DNA of 64,000 bases from a candidate division KSB1 bacterium (GTDB lineage Bacteria > Zhuqueibacterota > Zhuqueibacteria > Residuimicrobiales > Krinioviventaceae). Position numbers and translations under genes: made by a program. The notes under the pieces were generated by a model. That model saw nothing but the letters and a program-made list of their open reading frames with translations, ran no database searches and was not told the origin of the DNA. Each line of letters begins with the position of its first letter. The stretch's first letter is position 1. The stretch lies in the NCBI GenBank assembly GCA_034521575.1, contig JAXHMJ010000002.1, positions 1,065,089-1,129,088 of the forward strand. Reading direction: 5' to 3'. This document shows, piece after piece, positions 10,104 through 49,588 of the stretch.

Positions 10104-13100
10104 TTACTCGTTCTCCTGGAGCATAAGATTCAGAGCTTTGATTACCCTGGTGCTTTCATTTTTGACATCAGTTCCGAGATTCTCATAATCTTCTCGTTGT
10201 TTATCTTTTGCGGCCATTTCCAGAGTTTTTGATTTTTCCGACAATTCCATGGCGCCAACAGTAGCGCTACTCGATTTCAAGGTATGAGCCACTCTGGTAA
10301 TGGCTTCATCATTGGAATTTTCCAAAGATTTTTCCAACTCGGCCACCAATTTTTCGGTTTCTTCAATAAAAACAGTGATCATATCGTTCATAAAATCCGG
10401 ATCATCCAATCCGATATTGTCTTTGAGGATATCGATATCGACAATATCCTGGAGATTGGAACTGTCAAAGGTATCTTCCTCAACCTGAACTTCCGGTTCA
10501 TCTTCTTCCCGGACAAGTTCAGTATCTGTGGTGACAGATCTTTGAATCACCTTTACAAGTTCTTCCAGTTGTACAGGTTTACTAATATAGTCATCCATAC
10601 CTTCGTGCAGATACTTTTCACGATCTCCTGCCATGGCGTGTGCAGTTAAAGCAATAATCCGAGGCCGTTCATCTCCGTACCTTTTGATGAGTTCTTTGGT
10701 TGCCTGAACCCCGTCCATACCCGGCATCTGGATATCCATGAAAATGATATCAAAATGTTTCTTTTCTACAGCGTCTACAGCTTCTTCACCATTGTCTACG
10801 ACTTGAGCCTGATAGCCGAGTTTTTGCAAAACTCGTAATGTAAATTTCTGATTTACCTTATTGTCTTCTGCAATTAAAATATCGAATGGAAATCTGTCCG
10901 CCATTTCCGAATCGAGTGTAAATTTTTTCGGCCCGACCGGCTTTTTCGGATGTTTGACTTTTGTGAACAGATCAAGTATGACTTCATACAATTGAGACTG
11001 CTTGACTGGTTTGGGAAGATGCACATCGATATTGGCATCTTTTACCCGTTGTGGATTCTCATTGGTGCCGATTGAGGTGAGGAGAACTTTGGGGACTTTA
11101 TCCACAATGTCATCCATTTTCATGGCCAGGGTTAGTCCGTCCATTTCGGGCATCATCATATCCAAAATGGCAATGTCATATTCATTGCCTTCTTTTAACA
11201 GCTTGATGGCCTCTTCACCGGAATCCGTGTCCGTGGGCGTCATCCCCCAGGACATGGCCTGCAGAGCGAGTATACGTCGATTTGTATCATTATCATCCAC
11301 AATCAACACACGTTTGCCTGTCAATTCAGAGTGGGCATAAACTGCTGTATCATCAGGCTTGTGATATTTGCCTTCAGCCTGAATGGTAAAATAAAATGTA
11401 GAACCTTCACCGAGAACACTGTCCACGCCCATGGAACCGCCCATCAGTTCTGACAACCGCTTACTGATAGCAAGCCCCAATCCGGTACCGCCAAATCTAC
11501 GGGTGATGCTGGCGTCAACCTGACTGAAAGATTTAAACAGAGCGCGTCTTCCATCTTCAGAAATACCCATCCCCGTATCTTTAATTTTGATTAAAACGTT
11601 AAAGAGACCGGGTTTGACCTCGGTACTGCTGACAGTAACGATCACTTCGCCTTCATCCGTAAATTTTATTGCATTGTTGATCAGGTTATTCAAAATCTGG
11701 ATCATACGTGTCTTGTCGGAAATGAGTTCGGTGGGGGCCGGCCCTTCAATAAAGTAACTCAATTCGAGTTTTTTCTTGGCCGCGTTACTGGCATGCAATT
11801 CCAGACATTCCTCAATGGCCTTTCTCAAATTAAATTCTTCATGCTCCAGTTCAACCTTGCCCGATTCTATTTTTGAAAAATCCAGGATGTCATTGATCAC
11901 AACCAAAAGGGAATCACCGCTGTTTTTAATAACTTCAGCGTATTCCCGCTGCTCATTGTTCAATTCTGTTTGCAGCAGCAGATTTGTCATACCCAGCACA
12001 CCATTCATAGGTGTACGGATTTCATGGCTCATATTGGCTAAAAATTCGGAACGGGCTCGAGTGGCGTCTTCGGCCAGTTTTTTAGCTTCTTCCAGTTCTT
12101 CGTTCTGCTTTTCGAGTTCTTCACGTGTTTTCTTTAACTCGGTAATATCGCGTGAGACCCCGACCATACCGATGATCTTTCCGTTTTCATCTTTAAAAGG
12201 CACTTTGGTAGCGGTTACCCAGCGGGACCAGCCGTCGGGGCGCTTGATCTTTTCAATTTTTCCAATTAAAGGCTTTCCGGTACGGATGATTTCCTGTTCA
12301 TCATTATACGCTTCCTGGGCCATGTCCTGGCTCAGGAAATCAAAATCGGTTTTACCTACCGCTTCTTCCGGATCATCAATTCCCATCACTTCTGCCTGTG
12401 CCTGATTGATGCGGATAAAGCGGGACTTGGCATCCTTGAAATAAATCGTATCCGGAACATTTCTCAACAACGTTTTCAAAAGAGACTTTTCATAAGCCAG
12501 TTTTTCCCAGATACCGCGTTCTTCTGTGATGTCTTCAATGAATTCAATGATCCCGGAAACGCTGCCTTCTTCATTCTTATAAGTCACTTTATCCGAGCGA
12601 ATCCAGCGTATCCCTTTTTTGGTTCTGATCTTTTCGACCTGACCTTTTCCCGGTTTTCCGCGTCTGGACATAACAGTGTCATCCAGTTTCTTGACACTTA
12701 ATCGCTTAAAGAGCTTTTCCTCTTTGGCGCCGATCACATCATTTGCGTTAAAACCGATCAAATCACAAAAATGCTCATTCGCCTGAATAACGCGGTTGTC
12801 AAAATCCTTAAACATGATACAGGAAGGCACTGTCTCGTGGATAATATTTAGAACATCAGAACGCACTTTGAGATTCTTTTGAACCTTTTCGTATCTTACA
12901 AGCTGTTCTTTCAGCTGACTGGTTTTCTGGTTCAGCAACTGTTGAGAATCATCAAGTTCGTGCTTGTATTTATTCAGAGTTTTGTAGACCTTGGCGTATT
13001 TCGTCACGTTTTCCAGAATGACCAAAATACCGCTGATATTTTCTTCTTTATCTGTAAAAGGCAGCAACGTGACATTAAAAATAGAATTCTTATCATTGGA

Positions 13101-13340
13101 TGCTTCAAGTGTGATAAACTCCATATCGAAGCGTTGTTGCTGGCCGTCCAGTAATTCGTTCAAGATAGAGGTTGATTGGTTCACTTCCGGTAAAAAAGTG
13201 TCCACTTTTTGACCCATCAATTCATCCCGAGTGGGGCGAAATGTCTCACTTGTCAGAGACACTTCTCTAATTTTCAGTTTGCTATCAGTTCGAACATAGG
13301 ACAGATTTTTAAATCGGAGGATATAATCACAAATATTCAC
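10104..13340 (-). CDS. Hybrid sensor histidine kinase (PAS repeats, HisKA, HATPase, two receivers, HPt)
   Basis: A 1078-residue hybrid kinase with no obvious membrane segment, so probably cytoplasmic. Domain order: PAS-like region (about 1-125), coiled coil, PAS (165-280), PAS/PAC (285-405), HisKA with phospho-acceptor H in FLANMSHEIRTPMNG (about 440), HATPase with GTGLGLAISKRL, a first receiver (RVLIVDDN, DMMMPEMDG), a second receiver (ILIAEDN, FMDIQMPGMDG) and a C-terminal HPt (RVAHTLKSSSATVGA). It can therefore run a full phosphorelay and pass phosphate to the NtrC-type regulator encoded 25 bases downstream. The start is a GTG at 13340 with GAGGG upstream. The gene is intact over 3.2 kb. 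Confidence 0.95.
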   Translation of the reverse strand: MNICDYILRFKNLSYVRTDSKLKIREVSLTSETFRPTRDELMGQKVDTFLPEVNQSTSILNELLDGQQQRFDMEFITLEASNDKNSIFNVTLLPFTDKEENISGILVILENVTKYAKVYKTLNKYKHELDDSQQLLNQKTSQLKEQLVRYEKVQKNLKVRSDVLNIIHETVPSCIMFKDFDNRVIQANEHFCDLIGFNANDVIGAKEEKLFKRLSVKKLDDTVMSRRGKPGKGQVEKIRTKKGIRWIRSDKVTYKNEEGSVSGIIEFIEDITEERGIWEKLAYEKSLLKTLLRNVPDTIYFKDAKSRFIRINQAQAEVMGIDDPEEAVGKTDFDFLSQDMAQEAYNDEQEIIRTGKPLIGKIEKIKRPDGWSRWVTATKVPFKDENGKIIGMVGVSRDITELKKTREELEKQNEELEEAKKLAEDATRARSEFLANMSHEIRTPMNGVLGMTNLLLQTELNNEQREYAEVIKNSGDSLLVVINDILDFSKIESGKVELEHEEFNLRKAIEECLELHASNAAKKKLELSYFIEGPAPTELISDKTRMIQILNNLINNAIKFTDEGEVIVTVSSTEVKPGLFNVLIKIKDTGMGISEDGRRALFKSFSQVDASITRRFGGTGLGLAISKRLSELMGGSMGVDSVLGEGSTFYFTIQAEGKYHKPDDTAVYAHSELTGKRVLIVDDNDTNRRILALQAMSWGMTPTDTDSGEEAIKLLKEGNEYDIAILDMMMPEMDGLTLAMKMDDIVDKVPKVLLTSIGTNENPQRVKDANIDVHLPKPVKQSQLYEVILDLFTKVKHPKKPVGPKKFTLDSEMADRFPFDILIAEDNKVNQKFTLRVLQKLGYQAQVVDNGEEAVDAVEKKHFDIIFMDIQMPGMDGVQATKELIKRYGDERPRIIALTAHAMAGDREKYLHEGMDDYISKPVQLEELVKVIQRSVTTDTELVREEDEPEVQVEEDTFDSSNLQDIVDIDILKDNIGLDDPDFMNDMITVFIEETEKLVAELEKSLENSNDEAITRVAHTLKSSSATVGAMELSEKSKTLEMAAKDKQREDYENLGTDVKNESTRVIKALNLMLQENE

Positions 13341-42469: not shown

Positions 42470-43603
42470 TCAATTTTCATTTTTTTGAGTATCATATCTC
42501 GCTGAAATCATAATATCAGAGGATAAGCGTTTGATTTTTAAATTTTTTAACTCCAACGCCTGATTCATATTTCTTATTCCCAGGTCCCCTACGGAATCAA
42601 GACCGGCGCCCAAAAGCTTGGGGGCAATAAAAATAATAACCTCATCCACATTGCCGGTACGCAGGCATTCCGTATGCACTCCGCTTCCCCCTTCAACCAA
42701 AACGGATGTGATGCCAAGTTCACCCAGTTCCTTCCAGAGTACTTGCTGGGGTATATGGCCGTTATCATCTGCATTCAGAACCAGCACTGTTGAGCCACGC
42801 TCCACAATGCGCTGTACTTTCTCTTTGGAGGCTTGACTTGAGGTCACAATAATGGTCCTGCTCGCCAAATCATCTGCGATGACATTGGAGTCGAGAGGCA
42901 CTCTTAACTTACTATCCAGGACAATCCGTCTGGGCAGCACCCCTTTTGTTTCATGCAGAGTCAGATGCGGATCATCATTGAGGACAGTCCCGATCCCGAC
43001 CAGTACCGCATCGTGCCTGGCACGCAATCGATGTCCGGCTTTGCGTGCTTCTTCCGAGGTCACCCACTTGGAATGGCCCGTACTTGTTGCAATTCGCCCA
43101 TCCAGGGTCTGAGCAATTTTCAAGGTGATGAACGGCAGGCTGGTTTGGATGAACTTTACGTATCCTTTATTCAATTCCTGACATTTTTCTTCGAGAATCC
43201 CAACATCAACGCTAATCCCCTTGGATCTCAAAATTCTATACCGCGTCCGGATTCCTGCGGGTTTGGGTCTATCATGCCTACCACGACACGGCTGATACCC
43301 GCTTCATACAATACGTGCCGTGCAAGGCCCTGTCTTTCCGGTCCTCGAACAAGGTTCAAGAGTCACATACAAGGTAGCGCCAAGAGCATCGTCTGCGGCA
43401 TGTTCTAAAGCATTCACCTCAGCATGCGCCTGTCCGAAAAGTTGATGATACCCCTCTCCTACAATATTTCCGTCTTTTACGACAACTGCGCCCACCATTG
43501 GATTTGGACTGACCCGCAGACGTCCGCGCTCAGCCAAGTTCAATGCCCTCTTTATAAAATCCTGATCAGATCCAGAATCATTTTTTGTTTGTTTTGAAGA
43601 CAA
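42470..43603 (-). CDS. ribD: Bifunctional pyrimidine deaminase/reductase RibD, two frameshifts
   Basis: Second and third steps of riboflavin synthesis. The N-terminal deaminase has zinc motifs HAEVNAL and EPCSRTGKTGPC; the C-terminal reductase begins at PFITLKIAQTLDGRIAT and includes LVEGGSGVHTECL. Breaks at about 43310-43320 (before VLYEAGISRVVVGMIDPNPQ) and 43228-43240 (before ILRSKGISVDVG) cancel, leaving 378 codons, a normal size. The start appears to be TTG at 43603, since no ATG fits. No FMN riboswitch was recognised in the 280 bp upstream. First gene of the rib unit. Confidence 0.92.
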
Positions 43604-43884
43604 GGGTATGTTACCTGTTTAATGATCATATCAGTTAAAGCGAAACATAGAGTGCAGAAAAGTCTGTATGCCGCGCTACACAACATCATTTAGCTCGAAA
43701 AATATAAATATAATACTATATTGATGCAAGATAAATTTCAAATAATACACAATGAAACTGAATACTCATTCGGTTCTGTCCGATCGGCAAAGTTAATTGC
43801 CTTTACATTTAATTTCTTATGAGCTTTCTTTGTTTTCACAGTGAATTTTATTATCTTGGGGTAAATTTTACAACTGAATTTTTT

Positions 43885-45289
43885 ATGAAAAAACGATTTA
43901 AATTTATTTTATCATTTGGTGTTCCGCTTTTGATTCTGTTGTTGCCGTCAGAATGGCTTGGAATTGAGGGGTTGACAGTCGTTGAACACCGGCTTGTTGC
44001 AATTTTTCTCTGCGCCCTGTTTCTGTGGGTAACAGAGCTTGTGCCAATCTACGCCACTTCAATACTTATTATTGTCCTTTTACTTCTCATGCTGTCCGAC
44101 ACTGCTTTTCTGGGATTACGATCTGCGATCGCACCGGACAACGCCCTTGATTACCGGAAAATCATGGCATCCTTCGCCTCTCCGGTTATTTTCCTCTTTT
44201 TGGGTGGATTTTACCTGGCGGCAGCGGCTGCCAAATACAGACTCGACACCAACCTGGCCAGAGTTTTGCTAAAGCCCTTTGGAACGCAACCCAAGTATAT
44301 CATGTTCGGACTCATGTTTACGACAGCAGTCTTTTCAATGTTTATGAGCAACACCGCCACAGCAGCTATGATGCTTACCATTCTCATGCCGATTTTAAAG
44401 CTGTTTCCGCATGATGATCCCGGCAAAATCGGATTTGTACTGGCAATCCCCTTTTCTGCAAATTTGGGAGGAATTGGGACGCCAATCGGGACACCTCCAA
44501 ACGCTATTGCATTAAAATATCTCACAGGCGCAGACTCTGTGTCTTTTGCTCAGTGGATGACATTCGGTATTCCATTTGTACTGGTCAATCTTCTGTTTTG
44601 CTGGTTTTTAATATGGCGATTCTATCCATCCCGCGTGGAAGCGGTGAATCTTGATATTAAAGGACATTTTTTAAAAGGTTGGCGTGCCATTACCATCTAT
44701 ATCACCTTTGGTATTACCATTTTTCTAATGGTTGACCGATTTTATGCATGGCATTAATTCGTACACGGTGGCCATGATCCCAATCGTCGTCTTTTCCATG
44801 ACCAACATTGTATCAGCCAAGGATATGAAAAGCCTGAACTGGGATATATTATGGCTGCTGGCCGGCGGTATCGCACTGGGTAATGCCATGGAAGAAACCG
44901 GACTGGCTCTTCATATAATCGACAGCATCCCGTTTGACACCCTATCTCCGCTACTGATTATTGGTATCGCGACAATGATCACCTTTACTCTGGCTAATTT
45001 CATGTCCAGAACAGCCACAGCCAACCTGATGCTGCCGATTATTGCAGCCATGGGAGCAAATCTGTCCTCAGTCGCTGTTTACGGTTCCAAGCTGCTGATC
45101 CTTACCGTCACACTCGCAGCTTCACTGGCTATGGCCCTGCCCATCAGCACACCTCCGAACGCGATGGCGCATGCCACCGGAATCATTCGGACCGAACACA
45201 TGGCCAAACCCGCACTGTTGATCGGTATCATGGGATTGATAGGACTGGCCGTATTGATGGTTATCCTGAAAGCGGTACACTTTGTATGA
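43885..45289 (+). CDS. SLC13/DASS-family sodium-coupled anion transporter, one frameshift
   Basis: Inner-membrane symporter of the divalent-anion family (sulfate, dicarboxylates or citrate). The restored protein is about 468 residues with 11-12 membrane helices. The two family hairpins are clear: MFMSNTATAAMMLTILMP with GGIGTPIGTPPNAIAL, and FMSRTATANLMLPI with MALPISTPPNAMAHATG. The frame breaks at about 44719-44735 in a run of T, between ITIFL and WLTDFMHGINSY. The ATG at 43885 gives a basic start before the first helix; no clear ribosome site is visible. The final TGA overlaps an ATG (45286) that probably begins the kinase gene. The exact substrate is unknown. Confidence 0.9.
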
Positions 45290-45391
45290 ACCGAAAAACA
45301 AGCAACATACCCTGATGATCTCTAATACATACGAGACCATTATTTTTCCGATCCAGGCAGCCGCGTTGCCTTTAACACTCATGACCTGATT

Positions 45392-46630
45392 ATGCGACAG
45401 GATAAATTTAACGATCGGCTTTATCTGCTGGAATCCGGTCAGCTGGATGGATATCATGAGCTGGCAGGAGAGCGGATTCGCTTGTTTACCGTCGAGCCTG
45501 ATATGTTTGTTGGCGTGCATAGCTTTTTTTCCAGTACGTTCAAGAGCGGCGCCACAGTCCTTGCACGTAAACCATCGGTATTGAGATTTCTCACCTTTGA
45601 CTCTATCGATCAGGACAAACTTGTGCATCAGTTCTATCAGGATTTTATGCCTGTAGTGGTGCATGAATTATTCAGCAGAACGCTCAACCTGCAGCAAGCT
45701 GCTCTGGACAAACATGAGACTTTGAACCAGCTCATCATGCATGAAAAACTGGCTTCTCTGGGACAAATGGCTTCCGGAATCGCCCATGAATTAAATAATG
45801 CCCTCTCGGTGTTGTCCAGAAATACAAAGTGGCTGTGCAGCAAATTTCAGGACATTGTTACCGTTGAAGGCGAGCGGGAAAAAAATCTTTTATACAATGC
45901 ACTGGAGAACGGTCGCGCCCTCTCCACGCGCGACACCCGGCAGTTGTATAAGCAACTCGAAAAAAATACGGACTATGACCGCCAGAGTATTCAACACTTG
46001 TCAGAAATGAATATAAAAATCGATGAATCCGATAATGAGCACATTACACCCAATACCATAAAAAACCTGTATTTTAAATGGCAATTGGCCACAACTCTGC
46101 ATGATATGAGCGTCTCCGCCAATCAAGCATCGCAAGTGATTAAATCTATGCGTTCATTAGGCTCTGAACCGAGAAAAAAATTAAACAAGGTAAGTATCCG
46201 CGAGACGATAAACGAGGCGCTGACTTTAATTTATCCCCAGTGCAAACATATCGATCTGCATATTGATATCGAAACCGATATTGAGATTCAGGCCAATCCA
46301 TCTGAACTGGTACAGGTCTGGACCAACCTCTTGACCAACGCGTGTCAGAGTTTGAGTCATGCAGAAACAGTAAAGCCTGAAATATACATCCACTCTTTTA
46401 AGCGAGATTCAAATGCGTTTATCGAGATTACGGATAATGGCCCTGGGATACCGAAGGAACTGATCCCTCATATATTTGAGCCGCATGTGACCACCAAAGT
46501 TGATGGACTGTCATTTGGTTTGGGTCTGGGACTGTCCATCGTTGAAAAATTACTGAGCTACTGCAACGGTACCATCCGTGTAGACAGCAAACCCGGCAAA
46601 ACAACGTTTTCTGTTAAAATAGCACTGTGA
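45392..46630 (+). CDS. Sensor histidine kinase with cyclic-nucleotide-like N-terminal domain
   Basis: A soluble kinase of at least 412 residues. From the first clean ATG (45392) it opens inside a cNMP-binding-like fold (DRLYLLESGQLDGYHELAGE, FTVEPDMFVGVHSFF). Sequence back to 45326 continues this domain (YIRDHYFSDPGSRVAFNTH), and the true start may be the ATG at 45286 that overlaps the transporter stop, with two small breaks between. A coiled linker leads to HisKA with H in MASGIAHELNNALSVLS, an unusual ~110-residue insert, and HATPase (NLLTNACQSLSHA, ITDNGPGIP, FGLGLGLSIVEKL). There is no membrane segment, so input may come from the adjacent transporter or a small ligand. Confidence 0.88.
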   Translation: MRQDKFNDRLYLLESGQLDGYHELAGERIRLFTVEPDMFVGVHSFFSSTFKSGATVLARKPSVLRFLTFDSIDQDKLVHQFYQDFMPVVVHELFSRTLNLQQAALDKHETLNQLIMHEKLASLGQMASGIAHELNNALSVLSRNTKWLCSKFQDIVTVEGEREKNLLYNALENGRALSTRDTRQLYKQLEKNTDYDRQSIQHLSEMNIKIDESDNEHITPNTIKNLYFKWQLATTLHDMSVSANQASQVIKSMRSLGSEPRKKLNKVSIRETINEALTLIYPQCKHIDLHIDIETDIEIQANPSELVQVWTNLLTNACQSLSHAETVKPEIYIHSFKRDSNAFIEITDNGPGIPKELIPHIFEPHVTTKVDGLSFGLGLGLSIVEKLLSYCNGTIRVDSKPGKTTFSVKIAL

Positions 46631-46639
46631 GGTGTATGT

Positions 46640-47148
46640 ATGGAACGATTAAACATAGTCTGTATTGATGACCAGGAAAATGTGCTTTATACCCTGCAGC
46701 GCGATCTGACCCTATTCCAGTCAGACCTCAACCTCTCATTCTGCGGATCAGCCTCAGAAGCCTGCCAGGTGCTTGAAGAGCTGGAATCAGCCGGACGATA
46801 TATCGCCATTGTGATTTGCGACCACATTATGCCGGATCAGAATGGAATTGATTTTTTGATTGAATTAAAGGAGGATGAACGCTTTTCGAAAATCAAAACC
46901 ATACTACTCACGGGCCTTGCCACCCACCAGGGATTGCCATACGCGCCATTAATCAGGCACATATTGACAGATACATCGAAAAGCCCTGGGATGGTAAAGA
47001 ACTCGTCGACACGATCAAGACATTGCTGACAGAGTTTATTTTTGATTCAGGGCTCGATTATTTACAGTACACCCCCTATTTGGATGAAAAAACCGTATTT
47101 GAGACGCTACACAATCCAAACAACCTCTATTCAAACCGGAATGATTAA
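46640..47148 (+). CDS. Response regulator with short C-terminal extension, one frameshift
   Basis: Receiver protein of about 169 residues once repaired. Acidic pocket IVCIDDQENVLYTL, phosphorylatable Asp in IVICDHIMPDQNG near 66, the switch Thr in ILLTGLAT. The break at about 46930-46945 hides the rest: IRAINQAHIDRYIEKPWDG (conserved Lys) and then about 45 extra residues (LDYLQYTPYLDEKTVFETLH) with no known output domain. It begins 9 bases after the kinase gene and is surely its partner. Its TAA overlaps the proB start (TAATG), so proBA translation may depend on it. Confidence 0.88.
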
Positions 47149-48315
47149 TGGCCAAGCAGGTAAAAATAAAAACTCCACAGTGGCAACGGGCTGTGATCAA
47201 AGTCGGAAGTGCACTTTGTGGCCCCAGGCAATACGATCAGCGCTCTGTATACGTCCGGGATAGCCCGGTTTATCAGCGCCTGCAGAAAGTCGGGCCGGCA
47301 AATCATACTGGTCAGTTCCGGAGCGGTTGCAGCCGGATTGACGCAAATAAATGCAAAGTATTCCAAACATCAACTCAATATTTCGGAAAAACAGGCTGTC
47401 GCAGCCATCGGACAACCGCTATTAATGGATCATTGGAAACAATTATTTGATTTTCCCTGCGCCCAGCTTTTATTAACGTATCAGGGGATAAATGATCGAC
47501 AACGGTTTGTAAATGCCAAAAATACCATTCTCAAACTGCTTGAACTGGACACACTCCCCATCGTGAATGAGAACGATACAGTCATCATTGATGAGCTCAA
47601 GGTAGGAGACAATGATAACCTCGCCGCTCATGTTGCCGTGCTTGCGGATGCGGACCTTTTGATTATTTGCTCTGATATTAACGGCTTGTATCAATCAGAT
47701 CCAAGACAAAACCATTCAGCCGGCTTTATTCCCGTGGTTGAAAACATTGACAGCTCCATATACAATCTGGCCGGAAAAGCGAATGATCCAAATGCCACAG
47801 GCGGTATGTTTACAAAAATTGAAGCAGCAGAGAAAGCAACGGCGCGCGGAATCAATACCGTTATTCTCAACGGGACGCGCCCCGAGTGCCTGACAAGATT
47901 ATTAGAGGGTGAAATATGCGGCACGATATTTAAAAAACATGACACTCCGATCAAAGCCAAAAAGCACTGGATGCTGCATGCACTTCCCGGTGCCGGTGAA
48001 ATCTGGATAGACCAGGGAGCGGCCAAAGCCATTGCTTTTAAAGGCGCCTCACTTTTGCCATCCGGAATTGTAGAAATCAAGGGGCAGTTCACTCGGGGTG
48101 ATGCCGTCGCCATTATCTTTCGTAGGTCCTCCGGAACTATACTGAGAATCGCCAAGGGCATCAGTCAATATGACGCTTCTGATCTTTTGAAAATTATTGG
48201 CAAGAAAAGTCATGCAATTGAAAAAATATTGGGGTACAGTTATACGAATGTCGCTGTTCACCGAGATGACCTGGTGCTGTTTTCCAGCCCAAAGTCCTTG
48301 AAAGATAAAATATAA
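47148..48315 (+). CDS. proB: Glutamate 5-kinase, one frameshift
   Basis: First step of proline synthesis: phosphorylates glutamate. The ATG at 47148 (MAKQVKIKTPQWQRAVIKVG) is followed by a break at about 47215-47220 (one extra T) after VIKVGSAL; the frame then continues VAPGNTISALYTSGIARFI. Kinase motifs: IILVSSGAVAAGL, IVNENDTV, VGDNDNLAAHVAVLADADLL and ATGGMFTKIEAA. A C-terminal PUA domain (LPSGIVEIKGQFTRGDAV) makes 389 residues in all, normal. It overlaps the response regulator stop and is 13 bases before proA. Confidence 0.93.
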
Positions 48316-48328
48316 AAAGGAGAGGATT

Positions 48329-49588
48329 ATGTCTGATTTATCCAAACAATTGATGGCTTTGGCCGATCAATGCCGGAGTGCATGTAAAATTACTGCACAA
48401 TTATCTACACATGTTAAAAATGATGTATTGCATAAAATGGCCAATTCTCTGATAGATCAAGCCCAATTTATCGTATCTGAAAACACCAAGGATGTTGAAA
48501 ATGCAAAAGCCAATGGTTTAAGCGCCGCCATGATCGACCGCCTGGTGATATCACATGCGGGATTATCAAAAATGGCCGCAGCCGTGCGTGAAATTGCTCA
48601 ATTGCCGGACCCGGTGGGTGAAATCACAAAAACCTGGAGACGTCCCAATGGATTACAAGTCTCACAGAAACGTATACCGCTCGGCGTCATTGGTATGATA
48701 TACGAATCCCGTCCCAATGTGACGTCCGATGCAGCAGCACTATGTTTCAAGGCCGGAAACAGTGTATTTCTAAGAGGCGGCTCCGAGGCATTTCACAGCA
48801 ATCAGGCCATAGCAGCTGCGTTGCATACCGGCCTGGAACAGGCCGGTCTTCCCAGGGCTATGGTCACCCTGGTCCCGACCCCCAACCGGAAAGCTGTTCA
48901 GGAAATGCTCAAATTATCAGATTATATCGACATTATCATCCCGCGCGGCGGTGAAGGGTTGATCCGGTTTGTCACCGAGAACAGCCGCATCCCGGTTATC
49001 AAGACGTTCAAGGGCGTATGTCATTAGTACGTCGATTCATCGGCGAATGTTGCTCAAGCGGTCGATCTTTTGATAGATGGCAAAACATCAAGACCGGGCG
49101 TTTGCAATGCATTGGAAACTTTGCTGGTGCACAAGGACATTGCCGCTGATTTTTTGCCGGATGCTGAAAGAGCAATGAACGCCAAAGGTGTGGAACTGCG
49201 CGGCTGTAATAACACCAGAAAAGTATTGCCGGACGTAAAGTCAGCCTCGGAGGATGATTATTTTGCCGAGTTTTTATCGCTTGTTCTCGCCGTCCGTGTG
49301 GTGGACAGTCTCGATGACGCCATTGATCATATCGCAAAGTACGGATCTGATCACACCGACGTTATTGTCACAAACGATTATTCAAACGCCAAAGAATTCC
49401 TCAGGCGTGTTAATTCCTCGGTTGTGCTGGTAAATGCATCTTCGCGTTTTTCCGACGGCGGTGAACTCGGTCTTGGAGCAGAAATCGGCATCTCTACCAC
49501 AAAGCTTCAGGCCTATGGGCCCATGGGACTCGAATCCCTGACGACCCAAAAATTCATCGTCAACGGAGATGGACAGATACGGCATTAA
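48329..49588 (+). CDS. proA: Gamma-glutamyl phosphate reductase, in-frame TAG
   Basis: Second step of proline synthesis: NADPH-dependent reduction of gamma-glutamyl phosphate. The ATG at 48329 has AAAGGAGAGG upstream. The N-terminal half shows [20 protein letters not shown] and [12 protein letters not shown]. At 49025-49027 a TAG interrupts the conserved FKGVCH-x-YVD segment; the frame does not change, and [20 protein letters not shown] (which starts the part containing the catalytic Cys in [12 protein letters not shown]) follows directly. Total 419 residues, normal. The stop may be a base error for a hydrophobic codon; dnaE and rpsA end in TAG, arguing against recoding. Confidence 0.92.

Follow-up and report, generated by a model that had tools for sequence, protein, structure and literature searches.

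The SLC13-kinase-receiver gene block

A 64,000-nucleotide stretch of the genome of a candidate division KSB1 bacterium (contig JAXHMJ010000002.1, positions 1,065,089 to 1,129,088; hereafter the window) was analysed around a block of genes on its + strand. In order, the block holds the two halves of a gene for a sodium-anion symporter of the SLC13 (DASS) family, a soluble histidine kinase with a cyclic nucleoside monophosphate (cNMP) binding-like domain, and a stand-alone receiver; proB (AA_kinase and PUA domains) and proA follow. This gene set, order and strand had been proposed in an initial annotation, and both Pfam and the list of open reading frames (ORFs) confirmed them. The junctions were also as described there: the transporter TGA and the kinase ATG overlap as ATGA, 9 nt separate the kinase and receiver genes (TGA 46628-46630, gap 46631-46639, ATG 46640), and the receiver TAA overlaps the proB ATG as TAATG. 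The transporter, histidine kinase and response regulator genes (SLC13-HK-RR) form a real, conserved arrangement that is undescribed in the literature searched; no earlier description of SLC13 proteins with cNMP-domain kinases was found there, most subscription journals being outside the reach of the search.

Conservation of the block was assessed in several genome sets. A first search of 60 genomes, the window's own included, yielded full-length kinase orthologues in eight relatives at 38-41% identity, none of them from the window's family. With a kinase profile, positives numbered 15 among the 82 phylum genomes (the window's included) and 7 among the 294 of the Ignavibacteriales class, and a genome-contig scan for the kinase returned records from KSB1, Calditrichota and Ignavibacteriales. 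SLC13-HK-RR triads were present in nine species, namely the window, G011 (locus L033), G031 (L037/L051) and six Ignavibacteriales (among them L045, L046, L050, L156 and L161; at L049 the contig ends after the kinase). The transporter-kinase junction was a 4-nt overlap in all nine (ATGA; TTGA once), so that the coupling extends well outside this genome. The expectation that close relatives would share the block was only half borne out, as the kinase and the SLC13 clade are both missing from the nine further genomes of the window's family.

A profile of their clade (A2) was used to follow the transporters of the triads. At E 1e-60 it matched three of the 82 phylum genomes; at E 1e-100 it matched six of the 294 in the Ignavibacteriales class and one of nine in the phylum to which G087 belongs. 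All 10 positive genomes among the 385 hold the kinase, with the two genes adjacent in nine (hypergeometric p of 6.5e-14, ignoring kinship). With the triad conserved and the SLC13 clade tied to the kinase, the transporter-linked signalling suggested by the initial annotation is a fair inference. The receiver profile, below E 1e-39, picked out exactly the 15 of 82 genomes that hold the kinase, and where no receiver adjoins the kinase it is located elsewhere in the genome. Kinase-receiver pairs also occur without the transporter (G019, G022, G025, G027 and G032, plus loci L044, L052 and L053). At L045, L046 and L050 the gene convergent to the triad, 3' of the receiver, encodes a large protein similar to a kinase-like ORF of the window (10104-13340).

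In principle, the block could be a chance operon of unrelated housekeeping genes, proBA included, with no regulatory relation between them. This is very improbable, as the conservation of the triad and its overlaps across phyla contradicts it for SLC13-HK-RR. It does hold for proBA, which adjoins the block in the window only and at none of the 23 other kinase loci read. The suggested tie of the block to proline synthesis or to osmotic control is therefore rejected; proBA is a bystander, the next genes downstream here.

Reading frames in the window

None of the SLC13, kinase, receiver, proB and proA genes is present in the window as an intact ORF. Shifts of frame were located at ~44727 (SLC13), ~46930-46940 (receiver), ~47203 (proB) and ~49025-49070 (proA), and the 5' end of the kinase gene is broken between its ATG at 45286 and ~45392, with an in-frame TAA just before 45329. 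The ribD gene directly upstream is likewise split, which brings the region 43250-49070 to at least six frame breaks per ~6 kb (ribD, SLC13, kinase 5' end, receiver, proB and proA). The breaks in the SLC13 and receiver genes are single points after which the protein goes on in another frame (tblastn with intact relatives as queries). The breaks are mostly 1- or 2-base insertions or deletions in short homopolymer runs, and because they strike essential genes too, they are best taken as consensus errors of an unpolished long-read assembly (5 contigs, 5.26 Mb) and not as pseudogenes. True pseudogenes and programmed frameshifts were considered and rejected, since ribD, proB and proA are broken too and assembly indels are simpler. 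The ORF calls in the window are therefore unreliable and have to be read against relatives. A promoter and terminator scan gave counts close to the shuffled mean. The coordinates are collected in Table 1.

Table 1. Positions of the block and of the genes that follow it (window coordinates) and the basis of each assignment.
Feature	Position	Strand	Basis
SLC13/DASS Na+-anion symporter gene	43885..45289 (frames 43885-44757 + 44732-45289)	+	Pfam, identity to G011, TIGR00785
Transporter-kinase ATGA overlap	45286..45289	+	Sequence; same 4-nt overlap in relatives
Soluble histidine kinase, 5' end broken 45286-45392	45286..46630	+	cNMP_binding, HisKA, HATPase_c; orthologues
Stand-alone CheY-like receiver with C-terminal extension	46640..47148	+	Response_reg; both halves align with intact receivers
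Receiver-proB TAATG overlap	47146..47150	+	Sequence; not conserved in relatives
proB, glutamate 5-kinase, frame change ~47203	47148..48315	+	AA_kinase, PUA
proA, ORFs 48329-49027 + 49070-49588	48329..49588	+	Pfam Aldedh on first part

The transporter

Both halves of the transporter match the Pfam families CitMHS and Na_sulph_symp (PF00939), and the window protein shares 62% identity with its intact G011 counterpart across 465 columns. The G011 orthologue passes the curated DASS model TIGR00785 (262 bits against a cut-off of 199). VcINDY, the closest solved structure, is matched by the SLC13 clade over 425 positions (E 6e-48). To our knowledge, no dedicated kinase has been described for VcINDY-type DASS carriers. 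As in VcINDY and other DASS proteins, two SNT motifs are kept in the relatives (G011, G031 and the A2 consensus), whereas the window copy has one SNT and, in error-prone sequence, one SRT (FMSRTATANL, 44995-45020). The transporter is thus an SLC13 (DASS) protein that probably carries di- or tricarboxylates together with Na+.

The block-linked SLC13 proteins form one clade (support 100/100) that excludes two other DASS proteins and takes in the unlinked copy of G087; the window and G011 proteins pair as kinship predicts. The kinases behave differently: a clade of the SLC13-linked kinases was rejected (approximately unbiased test, p 1e-4), the window kinase being a long branch of unsure placement. 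A single origin of these kinases is thus contradicted, although their SLC13 partners form one clade. Because the two trees differ in this way, an ancestral triad whose transporter was later lost or replaced is the simplest account and fits best.

The carrier could itself be the sensor, signalling by contact with the soluble kinase, much as CbrA does by fusion. The invariant 4-nt coupling, which would help carrier and kinase to be made in equal amounts and assembled together, speaks for such a transceptor, as does the failure to find any member of the SLC13 clade in a genome that lacks the kinase. Neither a fusion nor a STAC-like domain was found, however, and in the 13 kinase genomes that have no such carrier the kinase must function on its own; we regard this possibility as distinctly improbable.

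The soluble kinase

Comparison with relatives indicates that the ATG within the ATGA is the correct start of the kinase, the window protein being 36-41% identical to full-length orthologues whose start is the equivalent ATG. Pfam assigned the domains cNMP_binding (PF00027), HisKA and HATPase_c (PF02518, E about 1e-21). The phospho-acceptor histidine of the dimerization and histidine phosphotransfer (DHp) domain is present in all 24 aligned kinases. An AlphaFold model built from the alignments of relatives showed a CRP-like roll, two long DHp helices and a catalytic domain, at a mean predicted local distance difference test (pLDDT) score of 77.8. Four short helices are inserted between the DHp helices, and the arrangement of the domains is uncertain (predicted template modelling score, pTM, 0.53). 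In the 24-member alignment the insert is a conserved helical segment (GRxLSSREVR ... AETG; ~residues 195-250 of the L045 kinase). At the N-terminus, Pfam and the model place the CRP-like domain and no CitA-type sensor.

The CRP-like domain was aligned to E. coli CRP, in which Glu72 and Arg82 belong to the phosphate-binding cassette. In 24 of 24 kinases the Glu position holds V, I or L and the Arg position S, T, A or C. Since both residues are missing throughout, a canonical cyclic nucleotide is unlikely as ligand. The cNMP-like domain noted in the initial annotation is thus present, but its presumed role as a cyclic-nucleotide sensor finds no support in these residues.

Kinases with the same domain order and the DHp insert at the same position are found in Nostoc, Caballeronia and Deinococcus plasmids, that is, in Cyanobacteria, Proteobacteria and Deinococcus. 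These kinases bear on a reading in terms of redox control, in which the kinase belongs to a wide cNMP-domain/DHp-insert family whose receiver is elsewhere fused to a thioredoxin-reductase-like flavoenzyme; the form in the FCB group would report redox or energy state, with carboxylate genes as one of several targets. A receiver-Pyr_redox_2 protein is encoded next to the kinase in Caballeronia and a few genes off in Deinococcus, and a ferredoxin-dependent oxidoreductase and FAD enzymes adjoin FCB kinases. In the block the receiver is stand-alone. Against redox control, the identity to the plasmid kinases of Caballeronia and Deinococcus is only about 28%, and the receiver profile did not single out the flavoenzyme receivers (85.7 vs 94 bits). 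Redox control is possible, although we lean against it. Such fusions with a flavoenzyme were also considered as a possible ancestor of the receiver, but their profile scores overlap those of other receivers. On the Caballeronia plasmid pNK83 (L168), two cNMP-domain kinases flank the receiver-Pyr_redox_2 flavoprotein, and a dicarboxylate/amino acid:cation symporter adjoins on the opposite strand.

The receiver

In the intact G011 protein Pfam found only a receiver (PF00072, Response_reg), and the phospho-acceptor aspartate is present in 15 of 15 receivers. The AlphaFold model of the receiver, likewise based on alignments of relatives (mean pLDDT 88.6), has the receiver fold with a long alpha5 and one short extra helix. 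The extension of about 45 residues reported earlier exists, but its length is better given as ~40 (37-44 residues after KPW in relatives). That this tail has no recognised output domain, as claimed, agrees with Pfam and with the model, in which it comprises the prolonged alpha5 and the extra helix. A special output domain was rejected on these grounds, on the Foldseek results and on the existence of 129-residue paralogues that lack the extension.

Foldseek neighbours of the model include Spo0F and CheY, which bears on how such a receiver could act. It may be a Spo0F-like phosphorelay shuttle that carries phosphate from a metabolic or redox-sensing kinase to an unlinked DNA-binding regulator that controls the genes for SLC13 or for the decarboxylase, with the transporter merely co-transcribed. 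A receiver-only protein with these neighbours would suit this role, as would the three receiver copies in G025, and known dicarboxylate systems act on transcription, for example KguSR on a DASS carrier (PMC5318444). Yet no recurrent phosphotransferase or DNA-binding gene occurs in the neighbourhoods read, and the receivers adjoin membrane Na+ machines, not regulators. We consider a shuttle rather unlikely. Still somewhat less probable is that the receiver would be a phosphorylation-controlled subunit of SLC13 or of a Na+-pumping methylmalonyl-CoA/oxaloacetate-type decarboxylase, depending on lineage, and would set Na+/carboxylate flux directly and not via gene expression.

Probable partners in carboxylate metabolism

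In three genomes (G025, G038 and G079; loci L196, L195 and L200) a 129-residue orphan paralogue of the receiver lies directly 3' of a methylmalonyl-CoA decarboxylase operon, ordered methylmalonyl-CoA epimerase, decarboxylase alpha, small subunit, biotin carrier and Na+ pump beta; in G067 an orphan receiver is convergent to such an operon. The distribution of the Na+ pump beta subunit was determined with TIGR01109. Within the phylum it was found in 11 of 15 kinase genomes and 12 of 67 others (p 7e-5), or by genus in 6 of 10 with and 10 of 49 without the kinase (p 0.02), and in none of the three SLC13 genomes. In the Ignavibacteriales class, where the pump occurs in 60 of 294 genomes overall, G088 (kinase, no SLC13) has it and the six genomes with SLC13 lack it. 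Pooled over the kinase genomes, the pump is present in 12 of the 13 that lack SLC13 and in none of the 9 that have it (p 2e-5), or, counted by lineage, in 7 of 8 and 0 of 4 (p 0.01); these counts leave out G086 and G087 and correct for kinship in part.

Other carbon genes recur beside the kinase. In G067, G075, G076, G077 and G078 it lies directly 3' of the alpha/beta genes of a 2-oxoacid:ferredoxin oxidoreductase, and in one clade aconitase adjoins it. This placement, with the kinase alone and its receiver elsewhere in the genome, was read at loci L043, L047, L048, L137 and L141. Overall, the recurring neighbours (Na+/carboxylate symporter, Na+ decarboxylase, KorAB-type oxidoreductase and aconitase) point to Na+-linked dicarboxylate metabolism. 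Of the two kinds of control that the initial annotation had considered, osmotic or carbon, KorAB, the Na+-pumping decarboxylase and aconitase as partners favour the latter.

Proposed function

We read the block as a conserved operon in which SLC13 is translationally coupled to its own two-component pair, and the pair as tuning Na+-coupled carboxylate uptake or decarboxylation; the arguments for and against leave this evenly balanced. The kinase would read an intracellular signal through its CRP-like domain, without the usual binding of a cyclic nucleotide, autophosphorylate on the conserved DHp histidine and then pass the phosphate to the stand-alone receiver. Because it has no output domain, the receiver would act by protein contact, most likely with the Na+-coupled carboxylate machinery or with an unlinked regulator. 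In this way the pair may match the Na+-linked uptake or decarboxylation of dicarboxylates to the carbon or energy state of the cell. The gene set, its overlaps and conservation, the co-occurring partners, the missing cassette residues and the receiver-only build are observations; phosphotransfer, the substrate of the transporter, the ligand and the target of the receiver are inferred steps, and direct contact with a membrane machine, relay to an unlinked regulator and redox control are each compatible with the data.

Several points weigh against this function. Contact of the receiver with a membrane protein is putative, and what the DASS protein carries might be sulfate or some other anion. 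The SLC13 gene of G087 is unlinked to its kinase, G019 has neither SLC13 nor decarboxylase, and several kinase-receiver loci carry no carboxylate gene, their neighbours being MscL, aldo/keto reductase, gatB and creatininase. The mutual exclusion of SLC13 and pump was noticed post hoc, with the seven Ignavibacteria kinase genomes as the sole fresh check. Finally, shared descent links the genome contexts, and sister genomes account for several of the counts.

Relation to known systems

The CitS-OadGAB-CitAB operon includes the genes of CitA, a membrane kinase whose ligand domain lies in the periplasm, and of CitB, a DNA-binding regulator. In citrate fermentation of Klebsiella, the Na+ citrate carrier, the oxaloacetate decarboxylase pump and CitAB serve one pathway (PMC3539929), and the likeness to the present case lies in this union of a Na+-coupled carboxylate carrier, a Na+-pumping decarboxylase and a two-component system. 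However, neither a membrane kinase with a periplasmic sensor nor a DNA-binding regulator was found here: the kinase is soluble, the receiver lacks an output domain, and the carrier and the pump take each other's place.

KguSR of uropathogenic E. coli is a two-component system that controls a DASS 2-oxoglutarate carrier, C5038, and its regulator KguR is a predicted sigma54-dependent activator (PMC5318444). A DASS carrier and a two-component system are common to both cases, but the receiver of the block has no output domain. CbrA, a single SLC5-STAC-PAS-HK polypeptide (PMC13022988), resembles the block in that a sodium-symporter-type SLC protein is tied to a histidine kinase. The block differs from such STAC transceptors in that its genes are separate, its carrier belongs to SLC13 and Pfam detected no STAC domain.

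Implications

The kinase family, with its CRP-like domain lacking the cAMP residues and its helical DHp insert, is widespread. Because relatives without the importer mostly carry the Na+-pumping decarboxylase, the kinase pair probably tunes Na+-linked organic-acid use, and the exchange of the symporter for a decarboxylating Na+ pump yields a concrete, testable prediction of what the pair regulates. If the proposed function is correct, uncultured bacteria of the FCB group would possess a two-component system that is partnered with Na+-coupled carboxylate machines and combines a soluble sensor with the absence of a DNA-binding output.

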